Assembly: GCF_004799685.1 (NCBI RefSeq)
Contig: NZ_CP031311.1
Location: 1,240,001-1,304,000 of the forward strand
Reading direction: 5' to 3'
Source of the DNA: Halobellus limi
Lineage (GTDB): Archaea > Halobacteriota > Halobacteria > Halobacteriales > Haloferacaceae
Length of the DNA: 64,000 nt
A model generated the notes under the pieces. That model did not search any database, was not told the origin of the DNA, and saw only the letters and a program-made list of their open reading frames with translations. The first letter of the stretch is position 1. Each line of letters begins with the position of its first letter. A program made the position numbers and the translations under genes. Below are positions 41,299-58,875 of the stretch, piece after piece.

Positions 41299-41357
41299 GT
41301 TCCCTCCCTCGCGACGAGACGAGAAAAGTCATACGTCCTGGGCCCCTGATCCCGCAC

Positions 41358-42017: not shown

Positions 42018-42063
42018 ACGGCCCGCTCGTCGGCACATACCGCGACCGACCGGCGCGCTCTCG

Positions 42064-42168
42064 ATAGGGATCATCGTAGCCGACCGGATATTCACAGACC
42101 CTCGGCCGGCCGCGGTCTTCGATTCGGACGAACCCGAATCGATGGATTGCGACGATAACCCCTCTCAG
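42064..42168 (+). repeat. Dispersed ~105-bp repeat, copy A
   Basis: It matches, as an inverted copy, 58665-58767. The right ~70 bases, from CCTCGGCCGGCCGCGGTC to TCTCAG, differ by two substitutions and one C; the left 24 bases differ by three; a 9-12-base middle block is unrelated. The copy sits between the HAD gene and a convergent hypothetical gene, overlapping the last bases of the latter. Within it one frame reads RPAAVFDSDEPESMDC in both copies. Confidence 0.85.
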
Positions 42169-42545
42169 CCGTCGGAACACACCGCGACCGCCCGGAGCGC
42201 CGGGAGCAGCCACTTCACCTGCGCGCCGTCCTCGACGAACACGAGCGTCCGCGGCGGTTCCGCGGCCTTCGGCCGGACGCGGAGCCCCTCCGCGCTGGCG
42301 GCTTCCGCGACGGGGTCGACGGCCCGTTCGAACTCGATGCGGACCCGATCGGGCTGGACGTACACGCCCGCGACGCGCTCGCCGCCGCAGTCGATCGCGT
42401 ACGCGAACGTCCCGTCCGGCGACGGTTCGACGTCCGGGTCGGCGTCGGTCACCGCCAGCGCGTCGAGGTCGTCGCCGTGACCGGTGACCTCGCTCGCGAG
42501 GAACTGCGCGATACGACGCCCGTCCGTGAGTCGCTCCTCGACCAT
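42165..42545 (-). CDS. Conserved haloarchaeal hypothetical protein
   Basis: 126 residues. It starts MVEERLTDGRRIAQFLASEVTG and ends with FVEDGAQVKWLLPALRAVAV. It is acidic and soluble with a predicted alpha/beta pattern; no named domain recognised. It follows the Mrp gene on the same strand after 89 bases and may share its transcript. Its 3' end touches repeat copy A. Confidence 0.65.
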   Translation of the reverse strand: MVEERLTDGRRIAQFLASEVTGHGDDLDALAVTDADPDVEPSPDGTFAYAIDCGGERVAGVYVQPDRVRIEFERAVDPVAEAASAEGLRVRPKAAEPPRTLVFVEDGAQVKWLLPALRAVAVCSDG

Positions 42546-42634
42546 ACGCCCGATTCCTCGCGGGGCGAAAAGAACGCTCCGTTCGCGGCCAACCGTCCGC
42601 AGTTGATCCGCGAACGCGCCGTCTCCGCACTCCG

Positions 42635-44092
42635 TCACCGGACGGTTGCCCGCGCGAGCCACGTCTCCGGGTTCTGCCGCTTGACCTCGAAGGAGTCGAC
42701 TCCCTCTCCCGACCCCTCGTCGAGCAGCTCCGAGAGGTACCCCCGGAGCGGCGTCGGGTCGCGGTCGCTGACGACGTGGAACCGCTCGTCGGGCTCCAGA
42801 CTCCGGAAGGCCTCGGCGACGCGTTCGCGCCGCTCCTCGGGCGGGACGTCGCGCAGATCGACCGCGGTCTCGGGCACGTCCACCTCCCAGATCTCCTCGA
42901 GGCGATCCCTCGTCGCGGCGGCGAGTTCGCGGGCGTGTCGGGTCGTTCCCTCCCGCGTCGGTCGCGGCGTCTCCTGCATCGCCGACGAGAAGGGGATCTC
43001 CGCGAGCACGGGGATCTCCAGGGCTTCGAGGGGGTCGCTCCCGTCGAACAGTTCGTGGGGGTGCCCGCACTCCTCGCAGACGAACTCGCCCATGTTCGAG
43101 ACCACGCCGAGCACCGGCACGTCGTTCTCCTCGAACAGCTGGATCGAGCGGTGCGTGTCCGAGACGGCCGCGTGGAACGGCGTCGTGACGAAGACGACGC
43201 CGTCGACGGGCGCCTCCTGCAGCGTCGTCAGCGCGACGTCGCCGGTCCCCGGCGGGAGGTCCAAGACGACGGTGTCGGGGTCGTCCCACGCCGTCTCCTC
43301 GAACAGTTCCGTGAGCGCGTCGTGCGCCATCGCCCCCCGCCAGGCCAGCGGCGCGCTCGACGACATCAGCCCGACGCTCATCACCTCCAGCCCGCCGGCG
43401 TCGACGGGGATCGGGTTCCCCTCCTCGTCGGAGTGGATCGGACCGCTGACCGACAGCAACTCCGGGACGTTGGGGCCGTGGATGTCGGCGTCGAACAGCC
43501 CCACGTCCTCCCCGTCGGCGGCGAGCGCACACGCAAGCGACGTCGCGACAGTGGACTTCCCGACCCCGCCCTTCGCGCTCGCGACCGCGACCACGCGCTC
43601 GGCCGCCCCGATGCCGACGTTGCGACCTTCGACGTCCGGACGCGACTGGACGTGCTCGACGTGCGCGCGCTCGACGCCGGGCACGTCCGACACCGCCCGC
43701 ATCATCGTCGTCGTCACCGCCTCGGCCTCGGACGGCGGGAACTCGCTCAGGTCGGCCTCGACGGTGACGTGGCCCTCGCGCGTGCGGATGTCTTCGACGA
43801 GTCCCGCCTCGAAGACGGTCACGTCTGCCTCGGGGTCACGCACCTTCCGGAGCGCCGCCTCGACGTCATCGGCGTCGACCGAATCAGTATCGACACCGAC
43901 CGAATCAGTGTCGACGTCGTCGGGGGGGACCGCGTCGCTGTCGACGTCCTCGGCAGGGACTGTGTCGACATCGACCGCATCGCCGTCGACCTCGTCGACG
44001 ACGTCCCCGTCTCGTCCGTCTACGCTTCGGTCTCGGCTCTCGCCGCCCTGTTCGCCCTCGCTGTCGTCGAACCGTCGATCGTTTCCGGTCAT
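42635..44092 (-). CDS. Mrp/NBP35-type Fe-S carrier ATPase with flanking domains
   Basis: 485 residues. Residues 1-75 are a disordered Asp/Val/Ser-rich tail (DVDTDSVGVDTDSV). A MIP18/DUF59 domain follows (about 75-145), then the ParA-type ATPase with VASAKGGVGKSTVATSLA near 173 and DADIHGPNVPELL. CEECG in VVSNMGEFVCEECGHPHELF is the cluster-binding CxxC. The last ~60 residues (FHVVSDRDPTPLRGYLSELLDE, QNPETWLARATV) resemble DUF2249. Mrp proteins carry Fe-S clusters to target enzymes; the nitrate reductase encoded just upstream, with several clusters, is a plausible client. Confidence 0.87.
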   Translation of the reverse strand: MTGNDRRFDDSEGEQGGESRDRSVDGRDGDVVDEVDGDAVDVDTVPAEDVDSDAVPPDDVDTDSVGVDTDSVDADDVEAALRKVRDPEADVTVFEAGLVEDIRTREGHVTVEADLSEFPPSEAEAVTTTMMRAVSDVPGVERAHVEHVQSRPDVEGRNVGIGAAERVVAVASAKGGVGKSTVATSLACALAADGEDVGLFDADIHGPNVPELLSVSGPIHSDEEGNPIPVDAGGLEVMSVGLMSSSAPLAWRGAMAHDALTELFEETAWDDPDTVVLDLPPGTGDVALTTLQEAPVDGVVFVTTPFHAAVSDTHRSIQLFEENDVPVLGVVSNMGEFVCEECGHPHELFDGSDPLEALEIPVLAEIPFSSAMQETPRPTREGTTRHARELAAATRDRLEEIWEVDVPETAVDLRDVPPEERRERVAEAFRSLEPDERFHVVSDRDPTPLRGYLSELLDEGSGEGVDSFEVKRQNPETWLARATVR

Positions 44093-44146
44093 ATGATATG
44101 GTAGGTCCGGCCTTCGTCGCTCCGTGAGGGGGCAGCGGCCGGCCGC

Positions 44147-45025
44147 TCAGAGGTCCGGCCGTCGGTTCAAGCGGCTCTCTCCCGGGCGGTCCGCGCTGTC
44201 GTTCTCGATGCCGCCGGTGAACTGCCGCCGGAACTTCCCGGGGTCGGCCTCCAGCGACCGCGCCGCGGTGCTGCGGACGACCTCCGGTTCCGACTCGTCG
44301 GCGGCGATCTCGGTCAACCGCCGCTCCGCGCGGTCGTCCTCGACGCCCGCGAGGAGGTGGGCCGCCCACTCGCGGACGCGCTCGCTGTCGTCCGTCGAGA
44401 GGTCGAGCAGGATCTCCAGGGTGTCCTCGCCGCGGATCTTGAACAGGGAGACCGCCGCGTTCCGGCGGACCGCGTGGTGGTCGTCGCCCAGCGCCGCTTC
44501 GAGGTGCGACTCGTAGGCGGTCCGGTCGATCCGATCGAGCGCGACGACGGCCTCCGCGCGCACCCAGGGGTCCTCGTCGGCGAGCGCTTCGAGGGCCGCC
44601 GCGCCGAGCGATTCGTCGGAGACGTCGCCGCTCCCGGTGGGGTCAGCAGGCACCTCCCCGCCGAGGTTCCCGAGCGACTCGACGGCGAACTGCCGGACGT
44701 CGCTGTCGTCGTCCGCCAGTCCGATCTCGACGAGGGCATCCACGACCCCCTCGGCCGGTCGCTCCTCGCCCAGCGCGAGCGCCGCGCGTCGGCGCTCGAC
44801 GACGTCCCCGTCCGTCAGGTCCTCGATCAACTCGACGGCAGAGCGGTCCGCGACCGGCCCCAGGTCCGTCGCCTGCAACTCCCGCGGCGTCGCCTCGCCG
44901 AGCGTGACGTCCCTGCTCACCTCGATCTCTTCGAGCCCCGCGGGCTCCTCGCCGAACCCGGGACTCTCCTCGGGGTGGACGCGCGGGTCCGTCGGCCCGT
45001 CGGTGGCCTCCTCCTCGTCCCTCAT
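44147..45025 (-). CDS. HEAT-repeat protein of the nitrate reductase operon
   Basis: 292 residues. After an acidic N-terminus (1-60) it has about five HEAT/PBS-lyase-like helical repeats, for example DVVERRRAALALGEERP, DSDVRQFAVESLGNLGG, DPWVRAEAVVALDRI and HHAVRRNAAVSLFKIRG. It corresponds in position to the last ORF of the Haloferax nar cluster. Probable assembly or scaffolding role for the enzyme. ATG 45025 overlaps the preceding stop by four bases. Confidence 0.8.
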   Translation of the reverse strand: MRDEEEATDGPTDPRVHPEESPGFGEEPAGLEEIEVSRDVTLGEATPRELQATDLGPVADRSAVELIEDLTDGDVVERRRAALALGEERPAEGVVDALVEIGLADDDSDVRQFAVESLGNLGGEVPADPTGSGDVSDESLGAAALEALADEDPWVRAEAVVALDRIDRTAYESHLEAALGDDHHAVRRNAAVSLFKIRGEDTLEILLDLSTDDSERVREWAAHLLAGVEDDRAERRLTEIAADESEPEVVRSTAARSLEADPGKFRRQFTGGIENDSADRPGESRLNRRPDL

Positions 45026-46023
45026 CGCGACACCCCTCGATCCCGGTTCTCGGACACGCCGCCCGACTCCCCGCCGCCGCGGTCGGTCCCGAGGAGCCTC
45101 TCGACCGGGAGGAGCGCGAGCGACGCGCCGAGGACGACCGCCATCGCCGCCGAGAGGGTCGCCGGCACGCCGGCGACCACCAGCAGTCCCGCACCGACGG
45201 CGAGTCCGTACTCGCCGCGGTGGATCCCGGCGACGGCCGCGGCCGTCCCACCGCCGAGCGCGAGCGCGACGAGGAGATGCGGGACGTCGACGGCGGCGAT
45301 CCCGACGAGCAGGCCGCTGCCGACGACGAACGGCCGCGACGCGGCGGCGACGACGGCGAGCGCGACCACCACTCCGCCGGCCAGGAGCGCGAACCGGTCG
45401 CCCTCCGCGCGGATCCCGAGCGCCGCGAGTCCGCCGAGCGCGAGGACTCCGCCGGGGCCGCGGAACCCGACGCCGATCAGGCCGGCGGTGCTGGCCAGCG
45501 AGACGGCGACGCCGGCGACGACGAGGGCGGCGATCACCCGCAGGCGGAACCCGCGGTACGTCGTGGGGCGGCCCAGGCCGCCGAGGAGCGCGACGCCACC
45601 GCCGGCGATCAGAGCGACCGTGGCCGGGAGGACCGCTCCCGCGTCGGTCGCCGCCAGCAGGCCGAAGACGCCGGCGAAGAGCAGGCCGACGCGGACGACG
45701 TCGCGACGCGACGCGACCGCCACGGCGACGAGAGCGACGCCGACTACGAACGGCGTGGCAGCGACGAGCGCTCGGGAGAGCCCGGGCACGGCGACCGGAT
45801 CGGACGGGAGGTTCCGGAGGACCGTGAGCGCCGTCGCGGCGGCGACCGTCGCGAGCGCGACCCCGCCCGCACCGAGCGCGACTCGCTCGCGCGAGGCGGC
45901 ACCCCGTTCCGCGGCGCGTTCGACGACCGCCCGGGTCTGGGGGCCGCTTCCGGGCTCCGCGCGACCCCGCTCGCCGTCGCGCTCCCCGCTCCGGTGGGCG
46001 GGGCTGGAAGACTCGTTTTTCAT
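45022..46023 (-). CDS. Polytopic membrane protein of the nitrate reductase operon
   Basis: 333 residues with an acidic/arginine-rich N-terminus (1-45) and about nine to ten hydrophobic helices rich in Ala, Val and Gly, then a disordered tail (GGGESGGVSENRD). No domain recognised. It lies between narJ and the HEAT protein, with ATGA overlaps on both sides, so it is coupled to the nar genes. A nitrate/nitrite transport or assembly role is possible but unsupported by motifs. Confidence 0.7.
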   Translation of the reverse strand: MKNESSSPAHRSGERDGERGRAEPGSGPQTRAVVERAAERGAASRERVALGAGGVALATVAAATALTVLRNLPSDPVAVPGLSRALVAATPFVVGVALVAVAVASRRDVVRVGLLFAGVFGLLAATDAGAVLPATVALIAGGGVALLGGLGRPTTYRGFRLRVIAALVVAGVAVSLASTAGLIGVGFRGPGGVLALGGLAALGIRAEGDRFALLAGGVVVALAVVAAASRPFVVGSGLLVGIAAVDVPHLLVALALGGGTAAAVAGIHRGEYGLAVGAGLLVVAGVPATLSAAMAVVLGASLALLPVERLLGTDRGGGESGGVSENRDRGVSR

Positions 46024-46766
46024 CGGCGCTCCCCCCGGCTCGCGTCCGTCTCGGCCGCCTCCCGACGGGCGGCCAGGTCGTCGACGTCCGCCGCGGTGAA
46101 CCGGTCCAGGAAGTCGCCGAGGCGACCGTACAGTCCGGTCCCGGTTTCGGATGCCAGCGCGTCGGCTATCCCCTCCGCGAACGGGCGGAGGTGCCGGTCG
46201 TGGAAGTCGAGTCTGGCGGCGGCGACGTCCGGGTCGACCGCGGCCTCCCGCCGACACAGGTAGCCCATAAACTCCAGTTCGAGGCGGAGGTGGTCGTGGT
46301 TCCGGCGGACGTCCTCGTCGACCTGACAGCCGAAGTACTCGTAGGCCCGCGCCAAGTCGAGGTTCACGTCGTTCCAGGAGACGTTCGGGCGGTAGCCCGA
46401 CTCGTACAGCGACACCGGCGGGCCCTCGTTGTGGACGGTGCCGTCGGTCCGGTCGACGACCTCCGAGTAGCCGACGACGAACAGGTCGTTGTACCGCGCC
46501 GAGAGCGTCTCCCTCTCCTCCTCGACCGTAAGGTCCGGCGGGTCGACGTCGAGGCCGGTGCGCTCCAGCAGTCGGGCGCACTCGTCGGTCACCCCGCCGC
46601 CGGAAAGCGCCGCGTACAGTTCCTCGTCGGCCTCGGTGAACAGCCGCGCCAGGAGCGCATACACCGCCCCGCGCGCGCCGGCCTCGACCTCGATCTCGTC
46701 GGAGACGTCGTCCGATGCGACCGCGGAGCCGGATTCCTCGCCCTCACCGTGTGCCGCCACGGTCAC
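46020..46766 (-). CDS. narJ: NarJ/TorD-type molybdoenzyme chaperone
   Basis: 248 residues from GTG 46766, which overlaps the upstream stop (GTGA). All-helical TorD/DmsD/NarJ family: ARGAVYALLARLFTEADEELYAALSGG at the start, LSARYNDLFVVGYSEV and GPPVSLYESGYRP (the family SLYES signature), then HDHLRLELEFMGYLCRREA. It keeps the apo catalytic subunit in the cytoplasm until cofactor is in place and guides Tat export. Acidic tails at both ends. Confidence 0.87.
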   Translation of the reverse strand: MTVAAHGEGEESGSAVASDDVSDEIEVEAGARGAVYALLARLFTEADEELYAALSGGGVTDECARLLERTGLDVDPPDLTVEEERETLSARYNDLFVVGYSEVVDRTDGTVHNEGPPVSLYESGYRPNVSWNDVNLDLARAYEYFGCQVDEDVRRNHDHLRLELEFMGYLCRREAAVDPDVAAARLDFHDRHLRPFAEGIADALASETGTGLYGRLGDFLDRFTAADVDDLAARREAAETDASRGERR

Positions 46767-47581
46767 TCACCCCTCGTTCGGCGGACGCCCTCGATCGTCA
46801 CGAGCGTCGTGAGGACGATGGCGACTCCGGCGACCGTCCAGAGGATCGCCTCGTAGGGCGGTCCCTGAGGGCCGGGGCCGAGCGCGAGGTAGTACCACTC
46901 GCTCGTGGCCTTCTGTCCGGAGCGCTCCATGTTCGAGCCGTTCCAGACCGCGACGGCGACGTCGACGTCCCGGGTCCCCGTTATCGTGGTCCGGTTCTCG
47001 CTCGCACCGGCGAGCGGTCGCGAGAAGACCACCCGCCAACGGCCGCCGTCGTAGGTGGCGGCCGTCCGCAACTCGCTGTCGGTCAGGGTCGTCGTCGTCC
47101 CCGGGCCGCCAGCCAACAGTTCCTGGCTCGCGTTCGCCCCGTTCCAGTACCAGACGTTCACCGGGTTGTCGGTGCTCCCCATCGTGATCGGCGGTCGCGC
47201 CGACTCGTTGGCCGGCAGTTGGACCGCGACGGCGTCGGGGAACTCCCGCACGTCGTCGGCCCCGGTGTCGCGGGTCCCATCCTCCCACGAGAGCCGGACG
47301 TACAGGCGCTCGTCCGTCCGAGCGCTGGCGACGCGGACGTTCTCGACCGTGGTGTCGTCGCCGCCGGGCACGGCCGCGCCGGCGCTGCTGAGTGGAACGC
47401 CCGCCGCCGGCACCTCCGTCCACGCCTCGCCCTCGGCGCTGTCGAGCGAGTCGGGGTCGTCGGCCGCGGTGACCGGGATCTCGTAGGCCGGCCGCGCCGA
47501 GACCATCGCCGGGACGGCGACGGTCGTCGCGACCACCGCGAGCGCGAGCACCGCAGCCAGGAGCAGAGGCCTACGGTCCAT
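46763..47581 (-). CDS. Heme-b-binding subunit, ethylbenzene dehydrogenase gamma-like
   Basis: 272 residues. An N-terminal signal/anchor (about 7-28), then a lipocalin-like beta domain with the DUF/EB_dh signature RLYVRLSWEDGTRD. The Met in PITMGSTDNPVNVWYWNG and Lys in RSGQKATSEWYYLALGPG fit the axial heme ligands of this family. A C-terminal membrane helix (about 245-265) anchors it. It should carry electrons between the cytochrome b/Rieske part and NarGH on the outer face. ATG 47581 has its own GGAGGT about 9 bases upstream. Confidence 0.82.
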   Translation of the reverse strand: MDRRPLLLAAVLALAVVATTVAVPAMVSARPAYEIPVTAADDPDSLDSAEGEAWTEVPAAGVPLSSAGAAVPGGDDTTVENVRVASARTDERLYVRLSWEDGTRDTGADDVREFPDAVAVQLPANESARPPITMGSTDNPVNVWYWNGANASQELLAGGPGTTTTLTDSELRTAATYDGGRWRVVFSRPLAGASENRTTITGTRDVDVAVAVWNGSNMERSGQKATSEWYYLALGPGPQGPPYEAILWTVAGVAIVLTTLVTIEGVRRTRGE

Positions 47582-47681
47582 CGTGCGGCCACCTCCGGGT
47601 GGGCTCCGACGGTCGGTTCGGGTCTGCGACGGGGAGTCCGCGCCGGAGGCCGACCCCCCACCCCAGTCGGTCGACGGTCAT
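47571..47681 (-). CDS. Possible 36-residue ORF between narH and the heme-b gene
   Basis: ATG 47681 overlaps the narH stop as ATGA, exactly like the other joints of this operon, and the frame runs 36 codons to TAG 47573-47571, overlapping the next start by 11 bases. The peptide starts MTVDRLGWGV, is rich in Arg, Pro and Trp, and is basic, unlike most haloarchaeal proteins. Without it there would be a 96-base gap in an otherwise gapless operon. Translation is not shown, and the basic composition argues against a conserved protein. Confidence 0.35.
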   Translation of the reverse strand: MTVDRLGWGVGLRRGLPVADPNRPSEPTRRWPHDGP

Positions 47682-48730
47682 TCGTCGAACACCTCCAGGC
47701 GGTACTGGTCCGCGGTGTCAGTCGTCGTCAGCATCTCCATCACCTCGCTCTCCTCGCCGCGTTCGACCCTCGCGCGCTCGCGCTCGATCGTGTTCAGCGC
47801 CTCGTTGACCGCCGGACCGAACAGCTCTTCGAGGTAGTTCCGCGGGATGCGCTCGGCCTCGACGGACTCGCCGCTCTCGGAGTGCTGCGGCGGCGCGAAC
47901 GGCGGGATGTAGTAGACGTTCGGCTCGGTGCGGTACTCCGGGTGGAGCCGCACCGCGACCTCGTACTCGTTGACGAGCTTGTGGATCGGCCCCTCCTCGT
48001 CGTCGAGGTAGCCCACCATCCGCAACTGCGGCGGGCAGTCCTCCGCACACGAGGGCGCCATCACCTCCCCCTCCGGCCCCTCGCCCTCGATCCGGGGGTA
48101 ACAGAAGATGCACTTCTCGGAGGTCTTCTTCATCGCGTTGTAGTAGACCTTCTTGTACGGACAGCCCTCGACGCAGTAGCGGTAGCCCCGACAGCGGTCC
48201 TGGTCGACGAGCACGATGCCGTCCTCCTCGCGCTTGTACAGCGCCGAGCGGGGGCAGGCCTCCACGCAGGAGGGGTGCGTGCAGTGGTTGCAGATGCGGG
48301 GCAGGTAGAAGTAGTAGGAGTTGGGGTACTCGCCGGCGCCCTCGTCCTCGTCCCAGTTCGGCCCCCAGTCCGCCTGGTCCATCGGGCGAAGCGGTTCGTC
48401 GCTGCCCTCGTACATCACCTGCTCGTGGTTGAACTCCCAGGGGCGGCCGTAGTCCTCGCTCTCGGGGAGGTCGCCGGGCGTCCGCTCTTGGCCCTCCTCG
48501 TCCCAGCCGCCGCCCATCTCCTCCCAGTCGCGTGGGTAGCCCGAGCCGGGCTTGGTCTCGACGTTGTTCCAGTACATGTACTCGCGCCCGCCGCCGTCGG
48601 TCCAGTTGGTCTTGCAGGCGATCGTGCAGGTCTGACAGCCGATGCACTTGTTCAGGTCCATCACCATCGCGACCTGGTGGTCGATCCCCTCGGCGAGGCG
48701 GACGTCCTCGCCGCTGCCGGTCTGGCTCAT
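47678..48730 (-). CDS. narH: Respiratory nitrate reductase, iron-sulfur subunit
   Basis: 350 residues with four Cys clusters: CIGCQTCTIACKTNW near 30, CNHCTHPSCVEACP near 140, CRGYRYCVEGCPYKKVYYN near 180 and CIFCYPRIEGEGPEGEVMAPSCAEDCP near 215. This is the NarH/DMSO-reductase beta pattern with one [3Fe-4S] and three [4Fe-4S] centres. A Trp replaces Cys in the NarH-type cluster region. There is no signal peptide; it is exported with NarG. Its ATG overlaps the narG stop by four bases. Confidence 0.92.
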   Translation of the reverse strand: MSQTGSGEDVRLAEGIDHQVAMVMDLNKCIGCQTCTIACKTNWTDGGGREYMYWNNVETKPGSGYPRDWEEMGGGWDEEGQERTPGDLPESEDYGRPWEFNHEQVMYEGSDEPLRPMDQADWGPNWDEDEGAGEYPNSYYFYLPRICNHCTHPSCVEACPRSALYKREEDGIVLVDQDRCRGYRYCVEGCPYKKVYYNAMKKTSEKCIFCYPRIEGEGPEGEVMAPSCAEDCPPQLRMVGYLDDEEGPIHKLVNEYEVAVRLHPEYRTEPNVYYIPPFAPPQHSESGESVEAERIPRNYLEELFGPAVNEALNTIERERARVERGEESEVMEMLTTTDTADQYRLEVFDE

Positions 48731-51700
48731 CGGCGCTCACCCCCCGGATCGTCGGCGGTGTCCCAGGCCGCGTCGGATCGGCCTCCCGGGCCGCCGTCGG
48801 TGCCGACGGTCAGATCGGCCTCGGGCTCGTCACCGGCTGTGTCGGCCGGTTCGCCGTCGACGGATTCGGTGCCCGCCGTTTCGGCGTCGGTCGGTGCGCC
48901 GTCGATCCGCTCGTCGCTTCCGCTGCCCTCCTGGTCCGCGTCCGCGACCTTCTCGACCTCGACGCGGACGTCGCTGTTGACGCCGGTCGGGCCCCAGTAG
49001 TTCGGGAAGAAGTGCAGGTGTTCGCCGGTGTCCTCGGGGTACTGGACGAGCTGTGTGGGTTTCATGTACATCGAGACGAGCGAGTTGAAGTTGTTGCGGT
49101 CGGGGAACTGAAAGCGCTCCCAGGCGAAGTACATCCGTGCGGTGCCGGGCTCGCCGCTGGGGTAGCGCTTCGCCTGGATCTCGACCTCGCCGACGTCGTT
49201 GTAGATCCGGACGGTGTCGCCGTCCTCGATGCCCCGCTCGTCCATGTCCTCGGGGTTGAGATAGACGATCGGTTCGCCCCGCTGGAGGCGGAGCATCTTC
49301 TCGGAGTCGCGCCACGTCGAGTGGATCGACCACCGGCCGTGCGGCGTGTTGTACCGCAGCGGGTACTCGGATTTGTCCTGCAGCGTCGGCGCGTCCTTGT
49401 GCGTCGGCAGCTCCTCGCCGAGGTCGAGGAACCAGTCGTGGTCGATGTAATACTGCTGGCGACCCGTGAACGTCGGCCAGGGCTCTTTGTCCTGCACGTA
49501 GCTCTGCCAGGGCGTGTAGGCCTCCCCGTCCTCGATGTCGGAGGTCCAGTGGTCGCCCGCCTTCGGGAACCGGCGGGGCTGCTCGTCGATGTCCTCGAAG
49601 GTGATCCGCTCGTCGCTGTCCGACGGGTTCGTCTCCTCGGAGTTCTCGAGGATGTACTCGCAGGCCGCCCGGTCTTCGGCCAGCGCGCCCGCCTCGCCGG
49701 TCTCCCAGTCGCGGACGTAGTCGTCGTGGACCGACTGGAGGTCGATCTCGCGGTCGAAGGAGCGGTCCTCGATGGGGTCGATCCCGCGCTCGGTCGCGAC
49801 CTCCTGGATCTTCGCCGCGAGTTCGCGGAAGATCTGCCAGTCGGTCTTCGACTCCCCGAGCGGTTCGACCGCGGGGGTGAAGGGGTGGACGTAGCTGTGC
49901 ATGTCCGTCATCGAGAGGTCGTGCTTCTCGTAGTGGCTGGCCGTCGGCAGGACGATGTCGGAGTACAGCGCCGAGGAGTCCATCCGGAAGTTGATGTCGA
50001 CGATCAGGTCGAGCTTCGGCCAGAGCCGCTCCTCGATGGCGACGTTGCCCTTGGACTGGTTGAAGTAGTTGCCGCGCCACATGAAGAGGACGCTCGGGTC
50101 GGGCCGGGAGCCGTCGTCCCGCTCTTCGGGGTACACCGGCATCCAGTCGCGGTCGATCGCCTCGCGGATCCGGTCGGCGGTCTCCTCGTCGACGTTGTCG
50201 ATGATGTCCGAGTGGTAGTACGTCCACAGCGTCGTGGGGACGCCGCGGACGCTGCCCGTCGGGAACGACAGCGACTGCCAGCCGCTGTAGGTCCATATCT
50301 TCTCCTGGCCGACGTAGTGGTCCAGTCCCGTGCCCTGCCGGCCGAGGTTCCCCGTCAGCGTGACGAGCAACTGGATCGCCCGGTTGCCGAGGTCGTTGTG
50401 GTACCAGTCGTTGACGCCCTTGCCGTGGATGATCTTCGCGCGGTCGACCTCCGCGAACTCGCGGGCGACCTCCTGGTGGGTCTCGCGGCCGACGCCGGTT
50501 ACCTCGTTGACGTGCTCGGGGGTGTAGGTCGCCAGTTCCTCGCGGAGGTTGTCCCACACCGTCCGCACCGACACCTGCCCGCTGTCGGTCGTCGAGACCG
50601 ACCCCTCGGCGGACAGTTGCGGGTCGAAGCCCAGTTCGATGCTGGCGCTCGCGTCGTGCTGGCCGTCCCGGTCGCCCAGTGACCCCGGGGCCGCCCGCAG
50701 GTTCCCGCTCGCATCCCGCATCACGAACACCTTCTCGGGGTCGTCGGCGCCGCCGCCGACGCCCGAGACCTCGCTCGCGCGGAGGAACTTCCCGGTGTCC
50801 TCGCGGACGAGAAGCGGCATGTCAGTCTGCTCTTTGAGGTGCGCCTCGTCGTGGAGGCCCTCGTCGACGATGGTCCGGGCCATCCCGAGCGCCAGCGCCG
50901 TGTCGGTGCCCGGCTCCGGCGAGAGCCACTCGTCGCAGTGGATCGCCGTCTGGGAGTAGTCGGTGAAGACGCCGACGCGCTTCGTGCCGTTGTACGCCGC
51001 CTCGAGGAAGTACTTCGCGTCGGGGATCCGCGTGACGTTGACGTTCGACCCCCAGGCGATGATGTAGTCGGCGTTGTACCAGTCGGCGCTCTCGGCGTTG
51101 TCGGTCTGGGTCCCCCAGGTGATCGGCTGCCCCGGCGGGAGGTCGGAGTACCAGTCGTAGAAGGAGTGGCTCACGCCGCCGAGGAGGTTGATCAGTCGGC
51201 TCCCCGACGCGAACGAGACCGGGCTCATCGCGGGGATCGGCGTGAATCCGCTGATGGCGTCGTACTCGCCGGCTCGGACGGTGTCGACGACCTCCTCGGC
51301 GATCTCCGTCAACGCCTCGTCCCAGGAGATCCGCTCCCACATCCCCTCGCCGCGCTCGCCGGTGCGGCGCAGGGGGTGGAGCACGCGGTGGTCGGCGTTC
51401 ACGTAGTCGGAGTAGCAGGCGCCCTTCTGACAGCCGCGCGGGTTGGGATCGGGCAGGCTCTCGTCGAACTGGGGGTAGTCGCCGGCCTGGGACTCCCGCC
51501 AGACCTGCCCGTTGCGGACGTACACCTCCCACGAGCAACTGCCGGTGCAGTTGACGCTGTGGGTCGACCGCGCCGTCGAGTCCCAGTCCCACTCCTCGCG
51601 GTAGAGGTCCTCCCAGTCGCGGTAGGCGTAGGAGCCGATCGGGTCGTCGACGACCTCGAGGCCGTCCATGTCCAGTTGCCGGTCGGCGACGCTCACGCCT

Positions 51701-51813
51701 CCGAGCCCCAGCACGGCGCCGAGGCCGATCCCCTTCAGGAAGTCGCGCCGCGCGGCGTCGATGCCCCCGGTGGTCGATTCCGAGTCGTCGTGGAAGTCGT
51801 GTGAGTCGCTCAT
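48727..51813 (-). CDS. narG: Respiratory nitrate reductase, molybdenum subunit (outward-facing)
   Basis: 1028 residues. A Tat signal with twin Arg, ARRDFLKGIGLGAVLGLGG, precedes the enzyme. The FS0 cluster ligands are HSVNCTGSC and, later, GCQKGAC. The Mo ligand Asp is in the NarG-type FYDWYSDLPPG, which separates it from Cys/Ser-ligated DMSO reductases. The molybdopterin-dinucleotide regions DYIIAWGSNVNVTRIPD, IHGKGVNDWYHND and LPTASHYEKHDL are in order. With the Tat signal this is the pNar type acting outside the membrane. The C-terminal ~70 residues are an acidic tail. Confidence 0.93.
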   Translation of the reverse strand: MSDSHDFHDDSESTTGGIDAARRDFLKGIGLGAVLGLGGVSVADRQLDMDGLEVVDDPIGSYAYRDWEDLYREEWDWDSTARSTHSVNCTGSCSWEVYVRNGQVWRESQAGDYPQFDESLPDPNPRGCQKGACYSDYVNADHRVLHPLRRTGERGEGMWERISWDEALTEIAEEVVDTVRAGEYDAISGFTPIPAMSPVSFASGSRLINLLGGVSHSFYDWYSDLPPGQPITWGTQTDNAESADWYNADYIIAWGSNVNVTRIPDAKYFLEAAYNGTKRVGVFTDYSQTAIHCDEWLSPEPGTDTALALGMARTIVDEGLHDEAHLKEQTDMPLLVREDTGKFLRASEVSGVGGGADDPEKVFVMRDASGNLRAAPGSLGDRDGQHDASASIELGFDPQLSAEGSVSTTDSGQVSVRTVWDNLREELATYTPEHVNEVTGVGRETHQEVAREFAEVDRAKIIHGKGVNDWYHNDLGNRAIQLLVTLTGNLGRQGTGLDHYVGQEKIWTYSGWQSLSFPTGSVRGVPTTLWTYYHSDIIDNVDEETADRIREAIDRDWMPVYPEERDDGSRPDPSVLFMWRGNYFNQSKGNVAIEERLWPKLDLIVDINFRMDSSALYSDIVLPTASHYEKHDLSMTDMHSYVHPFTPAVEPLGESKTDWQIFRELAAKIQEVATERGIDPIEDRSFDREIDLQSVHDDYVRDWETGEAGALAEDRAACEYILENSEETNPSDSDERITFEDIDEQPRRFPKAGDHWTSDIEDGEAYTPWQSYVQDKEPWPTFTGRQQYYIDHDWFLDLGEELPTHKDAPTLQDKSEYPLRYNTPHGRWSIHSTWRDSEKMLRLQRGEPIVYLNPEDMDERGIEDGDTVRIYNDVGEVEIQAKRYPSGEPGTARMYFAWERFQFPDRNNFNSLVSMYMKPTQLVQYPEDTGEHLHFFPNYWGPTGVNSDVRVEVEKVADADQEGSGSDERIDGAPTDAETAGTESVDGEPADTAGDEPEADLTVGTDGGPGGRSDAAWDTADDPGGERR

Positions 51814-52037
51814 TGGTTGTCGATAAGTACGGTCAGGAGTCCGGCCGCGACGCCCGCCGCCGCGACGCCGATCCCCGCGGGCGTCCCGCCGCCGATGTGG
51901 AGACCGGTGGCGATCAGCGCCACCCCCAGGAGTTTGCTCGCTCGATCCAGCCAGCGGTACTGCCGGGCGGAGGGCGCGATCGTCCCCCCACCGCGTCCGT
52001 CGCTCGCCGGCGCGCGGCCGTTGGGTCTGTCACTCAT
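51810..52037 (-). CDS. Small membrane protein between narC and narG (ORF1)
   Basis: 75 residues. It has a charged N-terminus (1-30) with YRWLDRASK, then two hydrophobic segments (about 34-50 and 52-71) ending VLIDNQ. Its ATG overlaps the narC stop and its TGA overlaps the narG start. It has the position of ORF1 in the Haloferax mediterranei nar cluster. Function unknown. Confidence 0.75.
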
Positions 52038-53482
52038 CGTCGGCCCTCCGAGCGGTCGGCCGCGCTCGATATCGCGTCGCCGTCGTCGTCCTCCGTCACG
52101 GCTTCTCCGTCGCCCGCCGACCCGTCCCCGTCCGCGTCGCCGTCGCCGACGGCCGGTTCGTCCGATCCCGTGTCGTCGTCGAACCCGCCGAGCACGGCGT
52201 AGGTGGCCGCGCCGGCGGCGATCGGTCCGGCGATCACGAGCAGCGTGAGGTACGGCCTGAGGACGGCCGTCGAGGTGTCGAGGACGTCGGCGACGATGAC
52301 GTCCATCCCGGCGATCGAGGCCAGCATGATGAACACGACGCCGGCGACGCCGACCGCGGTCTGGGACGGCCGTTCCAGCGGGTCTGCGCCGAAGTGCGTC
52401 GGCTCGGACTCGTAGTCGACGAACGGCCAGGCGACGACCGCGGCGAAGACGAGACCCGGCAGGACGAGCCCCCCGATGAACTCCGAACTGAGGTGGATCC
52501 CGAGCACGTCGAAGCTCATCCACGAGGGAGTCAGCTTCAGGAAGCCGTACCCCCACATCAGGAACCAGTCCGGCATCACGAGCGACGGCGTCGAGGCCGG
52601 ATCGCTCGGGCCGTACTCCGCGATGTTGTGGACCGGGAGGAAGCCGGCCAGAAGCGACAGCGTCGCCAGCGTGAGGAAGAAGACGACGGCGCTGACCGCC
52701 GCCTGGTTCGGCACCATCGGCAGCCCGACGACGACGCTGTCGTCCTCTCTGTCGACCGGCTCGCGCCCCTCGACGTCCGCCTCGCGCGGGGCCTCCGTGT
52801 GCTTCTGTCGGATGAGGATGAGGAGGTGCAGTCCCAGCAGTCCCGCGATCGCCAGCGGCAACACGAGCACGTGCAGGAAGTACAGCCGCGGGATCGTCGC
52901 GGTCGAGGGGAAGTCGCCGCCGAAGACGATCTGTCCGAGGGCGTCGCCGATAATCGGCACCGAGATGGCGACGTTGTAGCCGATGCCGGCGGCGGTGCTC
53001 GCGAACTCGTCGAAGGGGAGCGCGTAGCCGGTGTAGGCCGCGAACATCGTCAGCCCGGCCAGCCCGGAGCCGACGACCCAGTTGATCTCGCGGGGGTTGC
53101 GGTAGGCCCCGGTGAAGAACACCCTGAGCATGTGCAACCCGATCGAGGCGACGAACAGGTGGGCCGCCCAGTGGTGCATCCGCCGGATCAACATCCCGAA
53201 CGGCACGTCGTAGGTGATGTTGAGCACGCTCACGAACGCCTCGGGCATCTCCTCGCCCTGGTACTGGGCGACGCTGCCCTCGTACTCGACCTCGCTGATG
53301 CTCGGCTCGAAGAAGAACCCGAGGAAGAGCCCCGTCAGGATCAAGAGGAGGAAGCAGAAGGCGGCGATCTCGCCCAGCAGGTAGGAGTCCTCCGCGGGGA
53401 AGGCCTTCCCGAGGAACGTCTGCGCCTCCTCGAGGTCGAGTCGGGTGTCGAACCAGCCGTAGAGGCGGTCGAGTCGAGCCAT
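52034..53482 (-). CDS. narC: Cytochrome b subunit of the nitrate reductase complex
   Basis: 482 residues, cytochrome b/b6 family. Two bis-His heme pairs are visible: [19 protein letters not shown] and [26 protein letters not shown]-type residues in the C half appear as [15 protein letters not shown]. About nine helices, then a long acidic disordered tail (about 425-482, [15 protein letters not shown]). With the Rieske protein it should oxidise menaquinol and pass electrons outward. Stop and start codons of its neighbours overlap or lie one base apart. Confidence 0.92.
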
Positions 53483-53483
53483 C

Positions 53484-54164
53484 TCACTCGCCCCCCGGGC
53501 CCACCGGGCCCTCGAAGTCCCCGACGGCGACGAGGTAGCCGTCGCCGGAGATGGTGATCGGGAGCTGCGGGAGTTCCCGCGGGGGCGGCCCGCCCGTCAC
53601 GTCGGCCCCGGAGAGCGGATCGAACCGTCCGGAGTGACACGGACAGACGAGGGTGTCGCCGTCGCGGTCGGCCACCATACACCCCGCGTGGGTGCAGACC
53701 TTCGAGTAGGCGGCGTAGCCGCCGGCGGTGAACTCCAGTCGGGTGGTGCCGCCGTAGGCGTCCTCGGGGTATCTGACCAGAAGCGTCGGCGCGCGGTCGA
53801 TCCCGGGTCGGGCCTCCGGGAAGACGGTCAGGAGTTCCCCCTCCGCGAGGCGGCCCTCCTCGACCCGCTCGCCGTTGCCGTCGACGAGCGCGACCCCGTC
53901 GGAGTAGACTGGGCCGGTGTAGCTCCGCTCGAACACGCGCGTGAGACTGGCCAGCGGCGCGACGAGACTCGCGACGGCGGTGAGTCCACCGACCGTCGCC
54001 AGGGCCTTCGCGTAGTCTCGGCGCTCCATCCGCGCCCGGCCGTCGCGCCAGAACTCCTCGTAGATGCTCGGTTCGTTCGACGGGACGTCCCCCTCGCAGG
54101 GACACCCGCAGCCGTCCGAGTCGACGCCCTCGGAGACGGGGAGATCCTCACCGTTCCGCGGCAT
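53484..54164 (-). CDS. narB: Rieske [2Fe-2S] protein of the nitrate reductase complex
   Basis: 226 residues. The N-terminus has a CGCPC stretch and a twin-Arg anchor ([29 protein letters not shown]) that serves as an uncleaved Tat signal. The Rieske fold follows with cluster ligands CTHAGC and CPCHSG around residues 155-180. It accepts electrons from quinol at cytochrome b. ATG 54164 shares its A with the narA stop (TGATG). Long in-frame upstream sequence was ignored. Confidence 0.92.
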
Positions 54165-54733
54165 CAGTGTTCCCTCCGTTCGGCCACTTCGAGGTGCGGC
54201 ATGAACCAGGCGTAGTACGAGACGGTCAGCCCGGCCAGCGACATGAACATCCCGAACGCGTAGACGCCGAAGTACTGCGTCCGCGCTAACGTGAGGTACT
54301 CCCCGGTGAACAGCGCCGCGAAGGCGATCGTGAGGACGGTCAGCCCCCCCATCGCGATCAGCCCCTCGGCGGCGTCGCTCGGCGGGTGGTACTCGACGAG
54401 CCAGCGCTCTTCGGTCTCGATCCAGGGGAACGAGAGGCCGCTGCCGTCGGTGACGGTCGCGTCGGCGTCCGGGCGGGCCGCTCTGTCCATAAACCGATGG
54501 AAGAACGCGGTCACGCCGACCAGCCCGAAGAGCGCGATCCAGACGATCACGCCCACCTGGCTGGGCGAGAGCTTGTTCGGTGTATCGACGATGCCATCCA
54601 GCGGTCGTATCTCGCTGACACTCTGGTCGAGTTCGACCTCCTCGGAGGGGGGTTCGCCCTGCATCGCGACGAACCACATCGGGAGGAGCACTGCGAGCAG
54701 AATCCCAACGATGACGATTGTGCGGCGGTCCAT
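54164..54733 (-). CDS. narA: Membrane protein, first gene of the nar operon
   Basis: 189 residues with four hydrophobic helices (about 6-23, 60-80, 130-150, 155-175). An outward loop carries VSEIRPLDGIVDTPNKLSPSQVG. No cofactor motif recognised. It holds the place called narA in haloarchaeal nar clusters upstream of the Rieske and cytochrome b genes. It may take part in docking the complex to electron donors. The leader before ATG 54733 is about 70 bases from the TATA-predicted start. Confidence 0.7.
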   Translation of the reverse strand: MDRRTIVIVGILLAVLLPMWFVAMQGEPPSEEVELDQSVSEIRPLDGIVDTPNKLSPSQVGVIVWIALFGLVGVTAFFHRFMDRAARPDADATVTDGSGLSFPWIETEERWLVEYHPPSDAAEGLIAMGGLTVLTIAFAALFTGEYLTLARTQYFGVYAFGMFMSLAGLTVSYYAWFMPHLEVAERREH

Positions 54734-54826
54734 TGGCGGTGGAGCGGGTATCGGACTACTGACTGATCGGCGCGTGATCGGCGCGCGGTTCTCCGACCTA
54801 CACCTCGATCCACACCAGGAACTATG

Positions 54827-54852
54827 TTAAATTTTAATTACGAATATGTTCG
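54827..54852 (-). promoter_or_regulatory. Promoter and candidate regulator site of the nar operon
   Basis: On the minus strand TTAAAATTTAA (54838-54828) is a strong TATA box. Directly upstream lies CGAACATATTCG (54852-54841), whose outer CGAA/TTCG halves are palindromic. The NarO motif known from Haloferax denitrification promoters is CGAAC-N4-GTTCG next to TATA; the site here has the same half-sites and position but two fewer bases. A NarO-like, oxygen/nitrate-responsive control is therefore plausible. Confidence 0.55.
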
Positions 54853-54938
54853 GCTCCGTGTTCATACGTGGGAACGGCACCAGCGTCGCGGGCCGATCGA
54901 CGGTGAGCGTCTCGGCGGAGACGGTCGGCCCGAAGCGC

Positions 54939-55385
54939 TCACCCGTCGAGTTCGGACTTCGCGCTCCGTGCCGCGTCGCCGACGTCGACGCCCTGCTGAC
55001 GGGCGTACAGCGCGGCGGCCGCCTCGACGCTCACACCCAGGCGTCGCTGGCGCTCGTTCACGGCCGCCACGGCGTCCTGTTTGTCGTGACCGGCCGCGAC
55101 GAGCGCGTCCAGAATCCGCTCGAAGGCCGACTGCTCGCGGAGGACGGACTCGTCGGGTTCGTACTCCTCGGGCACGTCGACCGCGGGCGGGTCGAACTGC
55201 GCGACGAGGTCGCCGTCCTCGCGCGCGAGCAACCCGCGCCCGGCGGCGATGTCGATGAGCCGCTTCGCCTGGTCCGGCGAGAACCAGTTCCGGTCCAACG
55301 AGAGCGCGACGACGAACTCCCCCTCGCCCAGTCGCGTCGTCCCCTGCTGTTTGAACGGGACGGCGACGGCGACATCGAGGCTCAT
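54939..55385 (-). CDS. DUF2240 family protein
   Basis: 148 residues. The opening LDVAVAVPFKQQGTTRLGEGEFVVALSLDRNWFSPDQAKRLID and the following GLLAREDGDLVAQFDPPAVDVPEEYEPDES match the archaeal DUF2240 family, with a winged-helix-like N-terminal part and a helical C-terminal part (FERILDALVAAGHDKQDAVAAVNERQ). Function unknown. ATG 55385 preferred over the upstream in-frame start. Confidence 0.78.
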   Translation of the reverse strand: MSLDVAVAVPFKQQGTTRLGEGEFVVALSLDRNWFSPDQAKRLIDIAAGRGLLAREDGDLVAQFDPPAVDVPEEYEPDESVLREQSAFERILDALVAAGHDKQDAVAAVNERQRRLGVSVEAAAALYARQQGVDVGDAARSAKSELDG

Positions 55386-55494
55386 ACCCAGTAGGCCGAC
55401 GTCGACCCTCAAGGAGCCCTCGGTTTCCGCTCGGTCGGCTGACGGTCTCCGTCCATTCCGGGGCGGCGGATTCGGTCTCGATCACCGGACCCGC

Positions 55495-55701
55495 TCAGGG
55501 CGAGGGTTCGTCGTCGCCCGAACAGCCGCCCTTGAGCGCCCACAGCACGAGGACTACTCCCTCGGCGCGGGCGGCGGTGTAGACCCACGGTCTGAGTTCC
55601 ACGTCGTCTGTCGTCGCCAGCCCCATCCAGAAGTCGACGAGTCGGCGCGGAGCGATCAGTTCGACGATGCCGAAGACGAGAGCGACGGCTCTGAGCACCA
55701 T
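55495..55701 (-). CDS. Small membrane-associated haloarchaeal protein
   Basis: 68 residues. One hydrophobic helix at the start (VLRAVALVFGIVELIAP) is followed by RRLVDFWMGLAT, then a second weakly hydrophobic helix (about 44-58) and a short tail with one Cys. No family name recognised. Lies in a row of minus-strand genes with DUF2240. Confidence 0.55.
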   Translation of the reverse strand: MVLRAVALVFGIVELIAPRRLVDFWMGLATTDDVELRPWVYTAARAEGVVLVLWALKGGCSGDDEPSP

Positions 55702-55797
55702 ATCCAAGTATTGTCAGTTACCGGTGATAGCTCTTCGTCCGGTTCTCGACCGATGGGAACCACGAACGCGTCGCGTCCGGGGAAAACGGTGGACACG

Positions 55798-55861
55798 CCG
55801 GTGAGCGTGATCGTCGCGTCCGGAGGGAACGCAGACTCACCCGGTGAGCGTGATCGTCGCG
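55798..55861. repeat. Direct repeat at the end of the AMP-binding-like gene
   Basis: CCGGTGAGCGTGATCGTCGC occurs at 55798-55817 and again at 55841-55860, 43 bases apart. It encodes ATITLTG on the minus strand in both copies but in different frames; the first (55841) copy ends the gene at TGA 55839-55837, and the second is followed by a further coding-like stretch (VSTVFPGRDAFVVPIG). Confidence 0.8.
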
Positions 55862-56561
55862 CCCGCGGCGATCGGTTCGACGAGGCCGTCGACGACCGCC
55901 TCGTAGTCCTCGAACGGGCCCTCGACGACGACTCGCTCTCCCGGTTGCGGTCGCTCGCTTCCCCCCGCACCGGACCCTGCCGACAGCGCGTCGGCGTGCG
56001 AGTGGGTCCGATCGCCGACCGCCAGGAGCGGGTCCGCCCCTTCGACGCTCGCCGGATGGACCGCCGGGTTCTCGCTCCAGACCTCCGTCTCCCAGTGGGT
56101 CGTCGTCGGCTCCGTCGGCGCGTCGCCGTAGACGACGAGGTGGCGCCCGGGGGGCAGATCGAACGCCGCCTCGCGGTCCGCGGGCGCGACCACGACGCGG
56201 GGATCGGTCGACGGAAGCGCGTCGGAAAAGCGTGTGACCGCACCCAGTTGAGCCGCGCCGTAGAAGGCGAGGACCGGTTCGGGAAGCGGGTCCGGTACCA
56301 CGAGGACCTCCGTTCCGCGGCGGACGCCGAGGTGGCGGAGGACGTTGCCGACCTTGTACGTCGTCGTGATGAAGTTGCGGTAGCTGTACGCCCGGTCGAC
56401 GCGCTCGGCGCGGAGCGCGATGCCCGGCGTTCGTCGGTCGCGGGCGACGAGGTCAGCGAGCGTCTCGGGGTCCGAGGGGGCGGCGGGTACTCCCCACCGG
56501 CGGCTGTCTCCCCGGCGGATCCGAGGCCGGACGGCTCCTCCCGCTCTGGATCGGGGTTCAT
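55837..56561 (-). pseudogene. AMP-binding-like protein, frameshifted near its start
   Basis: The frame from ATG 56561 (MNPDPEREEPSGLGSAGE) is acidic and coding-like but runs off-frame at a G5 run (plus strand 56476-56480). From there a second frame continues as SDPETLADLVARDRR to GATITLTG. One extra base in the run joins them to about 241 residues. The second part (YSYRNFITTTYKVGNVLRHLGVRRGTEVLVV, YGAAQLGAVTRF) resembles the N-terminal subdomain of acyl-CoA synthetases but lacks the adenylation loop and C-terminal domain. Such short forms occur in haloarchaea; function unknown. Error or mutation cannot be told apart here. Confidence 0.65.
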
Positions 56562-56677
56562 ACCGGGGCCTCGGGCGGCGGGGAGCAAAACGGCGTCGGC
56601 CGCGCGACGACCGCCGGCGGGTCGATTCCCGATACGGCACCCCCACCGGCGATCGACGCGTCCCGTCCGCCGGGGGG

Positions 56678-56995
56678 TCAGGGAGCGCCCGCGACGACGA
56701 ACGTGCTCGCCTCGTCGGCGGTCAGTTGTCGGCTCGCGTCGGCCGCCACGCGAAGGGCGTCGCCGGCGCTCATCGTCACCGTCTCGCCCTCGACGTCCAT
56801 CGTCGCCGCGCCCTCGACCAGGTAGTACACCTCTTCCTGGCCGCCTTCGCCGTGGTCGTGTTCCATCCCGGTCCACCCGGCCTCGGCGTCGATGACGGTG
56901 AGTCCGAGGTTCTCACAGTCGAGTTCCTCTCGGAGGAAGTACATTCCCGGGGCCTTCTCGTCGCCGTCCGCGTGGTTCGCTTTCGTGTACGACAT
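56678..56995 (-). CDS. Cupin-domain protein
   Basis: 105 residues. A single cupin barrel: the first motif reads GMEHDHGEGGQEEVYYLVEG with His48/His50-type metal ligands and Glu, and the second is SAGDALRVAADASRQL, where the usual second-motif His is missing (Asp/Arg instead). This leaves a 2-His/1-Glu site. Substrate unknown. It is divergent from another cupin gene 119 bases away. Confidence 0.8.
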   Translation of the reverse strand: MSYTKANHADGDEKAPGMYFLREELDCENLGLTVIDAEAGWTGMEHDHGEGGQEEVYYLVEGAATMDVEGETVTMSAGDALRVAADASRQLTADEASTFVVAGAP

Positions 56996-57114
56996 CGACC
57001 GACCGTTCGGACGAGAGCGACGTGAAAGTGAGGGTCCCGGACGTTTCCGAGTGGCCGACCTCTCGGCGGGTCTTTTTCGGACCTGCGGCCGAAACCGACG
57101 CGCGAGAGCAGCCG

Positions 57115-57522
57115 ATGACAGAGGGCTACAACGTCGTCGAGCCGGAGAGCGTGCCGAAAGAACAGTTCAACACCTGCGAGACGTCGGTTCGGAAGCTGAC
57201 CGAGCGCCTCGGGGCGACGGAACTCCGGGTGAACCAGGTCCTCGTCGAACCGGGCGAGGTGACGACGCCGCACACCCACGAGGGCGCGGACGGCGAGCGC
57301 GGCCAGGAGGAGGTGTTCGTCGCGCTGACCGACGGACAGATCGCCATCGAGGGGTCCGTCCACGACGTCCCCGAGGGCGGCGTCGTCCGCGTGCGGCCCG
57401 ACGTCGAGCGGAACCTGCTGAATCGGACCGGCGACCGAACGCACGTCTGGCTCGCGTTCGGCGCGCCGCCGGTCGGGACGGTCGACGACTTCGGTTCCTA
57501 CGTCGTGAGCGACGGGGAGTGA
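57115..57522 (+). CDS. Cupin-domain protein
   Basis: 135 residues. First motif TPHTHEGADGERGQEEVFVALTDGQ with two His and a Glu; second motif PEGGVVRVRPDVERNLLNRT, with Asp and Arg where the second-motif His is expected, as in the neighbour. The two proteins share the GQEEV core but are otherwise different, suggesting an old duplication. ATG 57115 chosen; in-frame upstream codons lack similarity. Confidence 0.8.
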   Translation: MTEGYNVVEPESVPKEQFNTCETSVRKLTERLGATELRVNQVLVEPGEVTTPHTHEGADGERGQEEVFVALTDGQIAIEGSVHDVPEGGVVRVRPDVERNLLNRTGDRTHVWLAFGAPPVGTVDDFGSYVVSDGE

Positions 57523-57530
57523 CGGGCTCT

Positions 57531-58511
57531 TCAGCCGAAGACCCGGAACAGCCCCGCGATCCATCTGACGGCCTCCGAGAGGGCGAAGAGCCCGCCTTCG
57601 AGGCGTGAGAGTCTTCGACCCGACCAGAGGGCGCCGACCATAACGACCGTGATCACCGTCAGCCAGAGGAGGCCCTCTATCGCTGCGCCGCCGACAGAGA
57701 GGGGACGGACGATTGCCGCGACCCCGAGGATTCCGAGCACGTTGAAAATGTTGCTGCCGACGACGTTGCCGACGGACATCCCGATGTGTCCCCGCCGGAG
57801 TGCGAGGAGCGACACCGCGAACTCCGGCGTCGACGTTCCCGCCGAAACGATCGTCCCGCCGATGACCCAGTCGGAGACCCCCGCGTATCGAGCGAGCGCC
57901 GAGGCGGCTTCCACCAGATAGTGCCCGCTGATCAGCACGGTCGCTAACCCCCCGAGGAGTAAGAGGACGTCGCGTCCGGGGAGCGACACCGATTCCGCGA
58001 CCGTTTCCGACACGCGCGATTCCGGGTATTCGGTGTCGATCGGCGGCGGTGCTCGCTCGTCTCGGATCAGATAGATCGTGTAGCCGACTAACAGCCCGAC
58101 GAGGGCGATCCCCTCACCGCGGGTCACGGTCCGATCGAACAGCACTGCGAAACCGACGAACGTCGCGAGAACCAGTGCGATTCCGTCCCGGTGCAGCAGC
58201 GATCGCTCGACCGGGATGACGCGAAGCAGCGACACGACGCCGAGGATGAACGCGAGGTTGTAGATGTTCGAGCCGACGACGTTGCCGACGGCGATGTCGC
58301 CGAGCCCGGAGAGGGCGGCGTCGCTCGTCACGACGAGTTCCGGCGTCGACGTTCCGACCGCGACGACCGTCAGCGCGATCGTGATCTCGGAGACGCCGAA
58401 CCGTTGGGCCAGCTTGACCGCCGCGTCGACGAGCGTTCGGGCACCGATTCCCAACCCGAGGACGGCCCCGATGATGACCGCGAATTGAACGACGATCCCT
58501 CCGTTGACCAT
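57531..58511 (-). CDS. CaCA-family sodium/calcium antiporter
   Basis: 326 residues, ten helices, two inverted halves. The alpha-1 repeat is VVAVGTSTPELVVTSDAALSGLGDIAVGNVVGSNIYNLAF and alpha-2 is IVSAGTSTPEFAVSLLALRRGHIGMSVGNVVGSNIFNVLG, both with GTSTPE and GNVVGSN. These are the ion-binding cores of YrbG/NCX-type exchangers. Expected function is Ca2+ export in exchange for Na+ or H+, fitting a high-salt cell. Confidence 0.92.
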   Translation of the reverse strand: MVNGGIVVQFAVIIGAVLGLGIGARTLVDAAVKLAQRFGVSEITIALTVVAVGTSTPELVVTSDAALSGLGDIAVGNVVGSNIYNLAFILGVVSLLRVIPVERSLLHRDGIALVLATFVGFAVLFDRTVTRGEGIALVGLLVGYTIYLIRDERAPPPIDTEYPESRVSETVAESVSLPGRDVLLLLGGLATVLISGHYLVEAASALARYAGVSDWVIGGTIVSAGTSTPEFAVSLLALRRGHIGMSVGNVVGSNIFNVLGILGVAAIVRPLSVGGAAIEGLLWLTVITVVMVGALWSGRRLSRLEGGLFALSEAVRWIAGLFRVFG

Positions 58512-58664
58512 ACTGCCTCACAGTTCCGAGGGGTCAACATACTACTGTTTGACTTTTCGGTATGCCGGCGTCATCTCGTTCAGTCAGGAACGACCGAGCA
58601 CGGGAGCGCCGTGGCCCCTCTCCTTCGTCGAGCACTCGCGAGGTGAGCGATACCGGCAGTCTCA

Positions 58665-58767
58665 CTGAGAGGGGGTTATCGTAGCAATCCATCGATTCGG
58701 GTTCATCCGAATCGAAGACCGCGGCCGGCCGAGGAGTCGACCGCCGGTCGGCTGCGATAGTCCCTAT
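58665..58767 (-). repeat. Dispersed ~103-bp repeat, copy B (inverted)
   Basis: The reverse complement of 42064-42168 with few changes (see copy A). It lies in the 403-base gap (58512-58914) between the antiporter and dnaJ genes. A minus-strand frame from ATG 58779 passes through it (PRPAAVFDSDEPESMDCYD) and continues 40 more residues, but the continuation is arginine-rich and not clearly coding. The remaining gap (58512-58664) shows no gene. Confidence 0.85.
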
Positions 58768-58875
58768 GAGTTGGAGCATCGGCGCGGTGCGGTGGCGGGG
58801 AAGCGACCGGTGTCACCGCCGACGAGCGGCCGAAAGCCGTGACGTCGGCGGCCTTTTTCCCTCTAGGTTTTTGCG

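Follow-up and report, generated by a model that had tools for sequence, protein, structure and literature searches.

An inverted pair in the Halobellus limi genome as two copies of a MITE-like element of about 99 bp that duplicates TSA triplets, frequently at stop codons

Two sequences of about 100 bp, here called copies A and B, face each other across the mrp-nar-antiporter block of Halobellus limi. Each is very probably a separate insertion of a mobile element about 99 bp long that is MITE-like and non-autonomous. In the window (the whole 64,000-nucleotide stretch of DNA that was analysed), positions 42100-42162 and 58672-58734 are 97% complementary over 63 nt at a distance of 16.5 kb, and they are by far the top-scoring inverted pair, the next pairs reaching 71–78%. 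A search of the whole genome with copy A returned copy B at E = 7e-28, which rules out chance, and the two are mutual closest relatives within the genome (87%). The pair was reported in a preliminary description of this DNA, and alignment of the full copies bears that report out; its coordinates were correct to within a few bases. The boundaries, refined by the target-duplication analysis and by sequence, are given in Table 1 together with the flanking genes.

Table 1. Copies A and B of the element and the genes that flank them (positions in the window)
Feature	Position	Strand	Basis or remark
HAD-type hydrolase gene, left flank; ends 47 bp before copy A	41292-42017	+	function by reading the protein
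Copy A, whole element (100 bp)	42065-42164	+	ends from family-wide alignment
Copy A, left terminal inverted repeat TAGGGATCATCGTAGC	42065-42080	+	sequence; family consensus TAGGGATTATCGTAGC
Copy A, internal hairpin GATTCGG-ACGAAC-CCGAATC	42121-42140	+	sequence and fold analysis
Copy A, right terminal inverted repeat	42149-42164	-	sequence
Copy A, right target duplication TCA (TGA stop codon of gene 42165-42545)	42165-42167	-	intact
Small conserved gene (MVEERLTDGRRIAQFLASEV...); its stop codon is the target duplication of copy A	42165-42545	-	ORF reading; probably real
Gene for an antiporter-like membrane protein; its start has copy B upstream	57531-58511	-	putative; name from the preliminary description
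Copy B, target duplication TGA, one side	58666-58668	+	sequence; register as family-wide
Copy B, whole element (98 bp)	58669-58766	-	sequence
Copy B, target duplication TGA, other side	58767-58769	+	sequence
DnaJ-like gene, other flank of copy B	58915-60255	-	identified from the protein sequence; served as synteny flank

The limits of the element emerged from comparison with 60 further regions, and later 40 more. Copies from different genera agree at their ends and differ in their interiors. The element proper reads TAGGGATTATCGTAG(C)...(G)CTACGATAATCCCTA, with TAGGGATTATCGTAG(C) as terminal inverted repeat at both ends, and it measures 97–101 bp in 92 of 96 copies. Immediately outside both ends stand three identical bases, nearly always TGA or TCA, with C before and G after them (C-TSA-G). 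This duplication is exact in 48 of 70 anchored copies (at most 36 in 20,000 shuffles, mean 21.9) and in 58/96 copies of the wider set (shuffle mean 20.7, maximum 37); in the latter set, registers shifted from the duplication give identity in 1–5 copies, and a 4-bp identity occurs once. The 38 copies lacking an exact duplication include copy A, the left side of which has eroded to TCGA at 42061-42064, and some copies in other genomes carry other triplets, such as ACT. The triplet belongs to the target, since its middle base varies between copies of the same interior and orientation (TCA/TCA at locus L123, TGA/TGA at L124). At least 30 TAGGG ends were seen in one fragmented genome (G103; L275-L284 and L309-L314), where the outer triplets are often CTA/TAG or ACT/AGT, as from another target preference or from decayed copies. 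A first look at the H. limi genome found the duplication decayed in 8 of 12 copies, and activity there is therefore not recent. The internal hairpin of copy A is characteristic of its subfamily and not of the whole family. The constancy of length, together with the diverged and often unstructured interior, suggests a role for the distance between the two ends.

The family extends well beyond the pair. BLAST at E <= 1e-3 detects 10 copies in the H. limi genome (G000; 3.75 Mb, four contigs). With a covariance model trained on ten copies, the number of loci rises to 15 at E < 1e-5, distributed over contigs C1 (2.96 Mb) and C2 (0.4 Mb). Across Halobacteriales, the further copies that the preliminary description proposed to look for are present in 91 of 392 genomes and 34 of 95 genera at E <= 0.01, the weakest single matches among which may be chance; several genomes have at least nine copies each. 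Within the genus the distribution is patchy: BLAST gives a single match in G003, a single match in G014 and nothing in the 14 remaining genomes, and the covariance model gives five matches in G014. Plasmids searched with copy A yielded weak, chance-like matches only. Viral contigs contained no match for TSATAGGGATTATCGTAGC or TSATACGGTTTACTGTAA; a shorter 15-mer gave 49 single matches in them.

Relatives preserve sites without the element. The joined flanks of eight H. limi insertions were searched within the genus, and those of L071, L072 (copy A), L076 and L079 proved contiguous across the junction in both G011 and G008, some of them in further genomes of the genus as well. At L076 the empty site is clean at the level of the base: H. 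limi reads CTGGCGGA-GTGA-[element]-GTGA-GTC where G011 reads CTGGCGGA-GTGA-GCC. Divergence of the intergenic DNA blurs the remaining sites. At L071 and L079 the gene ends and stop codons match those of the relatives. To the right of copy A the flank agrees with that of G011, which has TCTCAG beside the same gene end and no element. A decayed copy may persist in G008 at the position of L074.

The same comparison bears on the earlier proposal that recombination between A and B inverts the mrp-nar-antiporter block. The inverted arrangement, the near-identity over 63 nt and the mutual closest relationship of the two copies speak for such a switch. Against these stand the approximately 15 copies of the genome, which lie in many orientations and places, and the order of the flanks in relatives: in six genomes of the genus (G011, G008, G014, G013, G006 and G003) the flanks of A share a contig with those of B, ordered and oriented relative to each other as in H. 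limi, and none is inverted. Among the ORFs seen, no recombinase lies beside A or B. The proposed flip thus finds no support, there being no inverted joint in any of the six genomes, and we regard it as very unlikely. Rare recombination between A and B would be possible given their 87% identity, but nothing shows it. The stretch from A to B (42165-58668) spans 16.5 kb in H. limi and about 3–7 kb in the six relatives; as its length and content differ among them, part of the mrp-nar region is variable.

Many insertions lie precisely at the ends of genes. In 25 of 71 copies the duplicated triplet coincides exactly with the end of a coding-like ORF, a lower bound as the ORF filter misses some (L071, L072 and L076), and any other position accounts for at most two. 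Eight of the 15 H. limi copies are at stop codons, L071 (by its reading frame) and copy A included. Public annotation likewise has a chemotaxis gene of Natronosalvus amylolyticus and a dihydrolipoyl dehydrogenase gene of Natronorubrum aibiense ending at the element. The gene whose stop codon adjoins copy A is probably real, since L326, from another genus, encodes a protein like it. No stop codon coincides with copy B, which sits between the dnaJ-like gene and the start of the antiporter gene. The abundance of stop-codon sites, that of copy A among them, would be explained by the target itself: TSA includes TGA, and duplication of a TGA rebuilds the stop on insertion. On the assumption that insertion occurs at CTSAG or similar sites and that insertions within genes are lost, the rough neutral expectation at stops is 13–20%, falling to 6% if plain TSA is taken as the target; with 35% observed, stops are occupied about twice as often as expected. 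A further preference for stops beyond this expectation is suggestive only, since the gene models are simple and the estimate comes from about 110 kb.

Position right behind stop codons is also what might be seen of a conserved structured RNA, or of an element of mRNA 3' ends (a terminator or stabiliser), that selection rather than insertion had put in place. Both strands of A and B do fold strongly (z -3.6 to -4.6). Yet the element has no Rfam match, its covariation term is near zero (0.18), and interiors from many genera fold no better than shuffles. The patchy presence, the empty sites within the genus and the exact TSA duplication are further evidence against such an RNA, which we hold to be highly improbable.

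Little credence can equally be given to an element of the REP/REPIN type, mobilised by a REP-associated tyrosine (HUH) transposase. Some subfamilies do have palindromic halves with GTAG beside the inner stem, and the copies are intergenic and near gene ends. The inner stems are not conserved, however, and the 3-bp target duplication depends on the site, unlike the outcome of single-strand HUH transposition (IS200/IS605, RAYT), which is not known to give a site-varying 3-bp target duplication. REPs and REPINs (PMC3116915, PMC3733652) are likewise small, palindromic, interspersed repeats outside genes; the present element differs from them in its conserved outer ends and site-dependent duplication, and in having no conserved inner hairpins.

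The weakest alternative, a short coding repeat sharing the frame RPAAVFDSDEPESMDC, can practically be dismissed: the frame noted in the preliminary description exists and is open through 10 of 13 copies in the genome, but it is not a shared gene, as no frame is open in more than half of 96 copies, there is no common start or gene context, and copies end on stop codons of unrelated genes. With no conserved frame over the 96 copies, the sequence is a DNA repeat and not the paralogous coding region that the preliminary description had kept in view.

The reading as a mobile element accommodates these observations. The sequence is short and non-coding, has terminal inverted repeats and a target duplication of fixed length, and exists in multiple copies with empty sites; it works like a MITE and has all of the MITE features tested save a known parent, none having been found among the few genomes and 30 PF01609 loci covered. 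In the mechanism that we propose, a transposase supplied in trans would recognise both ends, a CTSAG-like target would be cut with a 3-nt stagger, and repair would duplicate the TSA. Insertion into a TGA stop codon would restore the stop, leave the protein unchanged and so be tolerated. The near-constant length is unexplained by a plain MITE model.

The search for an autonomous partner led to a second family, of 79–81 bp, with ends TACGGWTTRYTGTA and TSA duplications. Genome G134 gave 311 + 291 matches to its TACGGWTTRYTGTA-type end pattern and none to the reversed control, corresponding to approximately 300 elements. Forty regions of this genome (L338-L377) supplied a sample of 41 elements. 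An exact TGA/TCA duplication flanks 37 of them, against a mean of 19.7 and a maximum of 30 in shuffles; 32 measure precisely 80 bp, and 10 lie exactly at a stop codon. Further members are L332:2811-2890 and L323:2389-2467, and the family was found on many Natrialbaceae plasmids, where annotated genes end at it: archease in Natrinema thermotolerans, an oxidoreductase in Natrialba magadii and a PHP-domain gene in Halomontanus rarus. The two families meet at L127:919-1190 of G134 in a row of three elements, TGA-[TACGG]-TGA-[TAGGG]-TGA-[TACGG]-TGA, an arrangement that insertion of elements at one another's triplets would produce. The end pattern of the second family is absent from the window.

Among the few genomes and 30 PF01609 transposase loci covered, we found no transposase-bearing element with the ends of either family. 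The end pattern revealed no autonomous partner in 12 genomes, and the ends at the 30 PF01609 loci, from five genomes, differ from those of the element. In the regions fetched for an autonomous partner, nearly all strong ends are paired about 84 bp away and no convincing distant partner appeared; two distant end pairs were listed, neither with a transposase identified. A relaxed end pattern likewise gave no autonomous element in G134 and G213. One candidate in G213, L322:366-2524, is a 2.16-kb unit with matching TAGGGATTAGCG-type ends and TGA on both sides. It was rejected as an autonomous element, for its genes encode an HTH regulator and an alpha/beta hydrolase rather than a transposase, and it may be a composite unit or two separate remnants.

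Elements with 3-bp duplications of the T-N-A type are known among IS5-type insertion sequences (for example the IS1031 group) and eukaryotic PIF/Harbinger MITEs. The duplication is common to these and to the present element, although no such transposase could be linked to it at the 30 PF01609 loci. Prokaryotic MITEs (reviewed in PMC10969869) resemble it in being short, non-coding and dispersed, with terminal inverted repeats and a target duplication. Those described in haloarchaea are ISH2 and MITEHsal1/2 (PMC10264941): ISH2 is mobilised by the ISH8 transposase with a 10-bp duplication, and MITEHsal2, about 410 bp long, has one of 6–8 bp. The present element differs from ISH2 and MITEHsal2 in its 3-bp TSA duplication, its length of about 99 bp and the lack of any parent transposon found. 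Nearest in size are SMR-A/B of Haloquadratum walsbyi, which are about 80–110 bp long with prominent inverted repeats, a trait also common to both, and are mobilised in an enigmatic manner without a known parent transposon (PMC3119063); for the present element, too, no parent was found among the genomes and loci covered. SMRs reportedly make no target duplication, and SMR-A prefers the palindromes of PATEs and IS605-type elements (PMC3119063). Their published description sets them apart from the present family, which has a 3-bp TSA duplication and many stop-codon sites. No paper that names this sequence or gives its end sequence was found in the open-access literature.

What had appeared as an inversion switch is thus replaced by a widespread class of tiny haloarchaeal mobile elements, for which we found no description. 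It is conceivable, if rather doubtful at present, that the orphan elements of fixed length (about 80 and 99 bp, approximately two helical turns apart) represent a distinct haloarchaeal transposition system with a strict TSA target and a transposase encoded apart from any element, for which stop codons would serve as a safe haven through rebuilding of the stop, beyond the effect of selection alone. The duplicated TGA offers a simple and testable reason why a transposon could insert into stop codons without cost.
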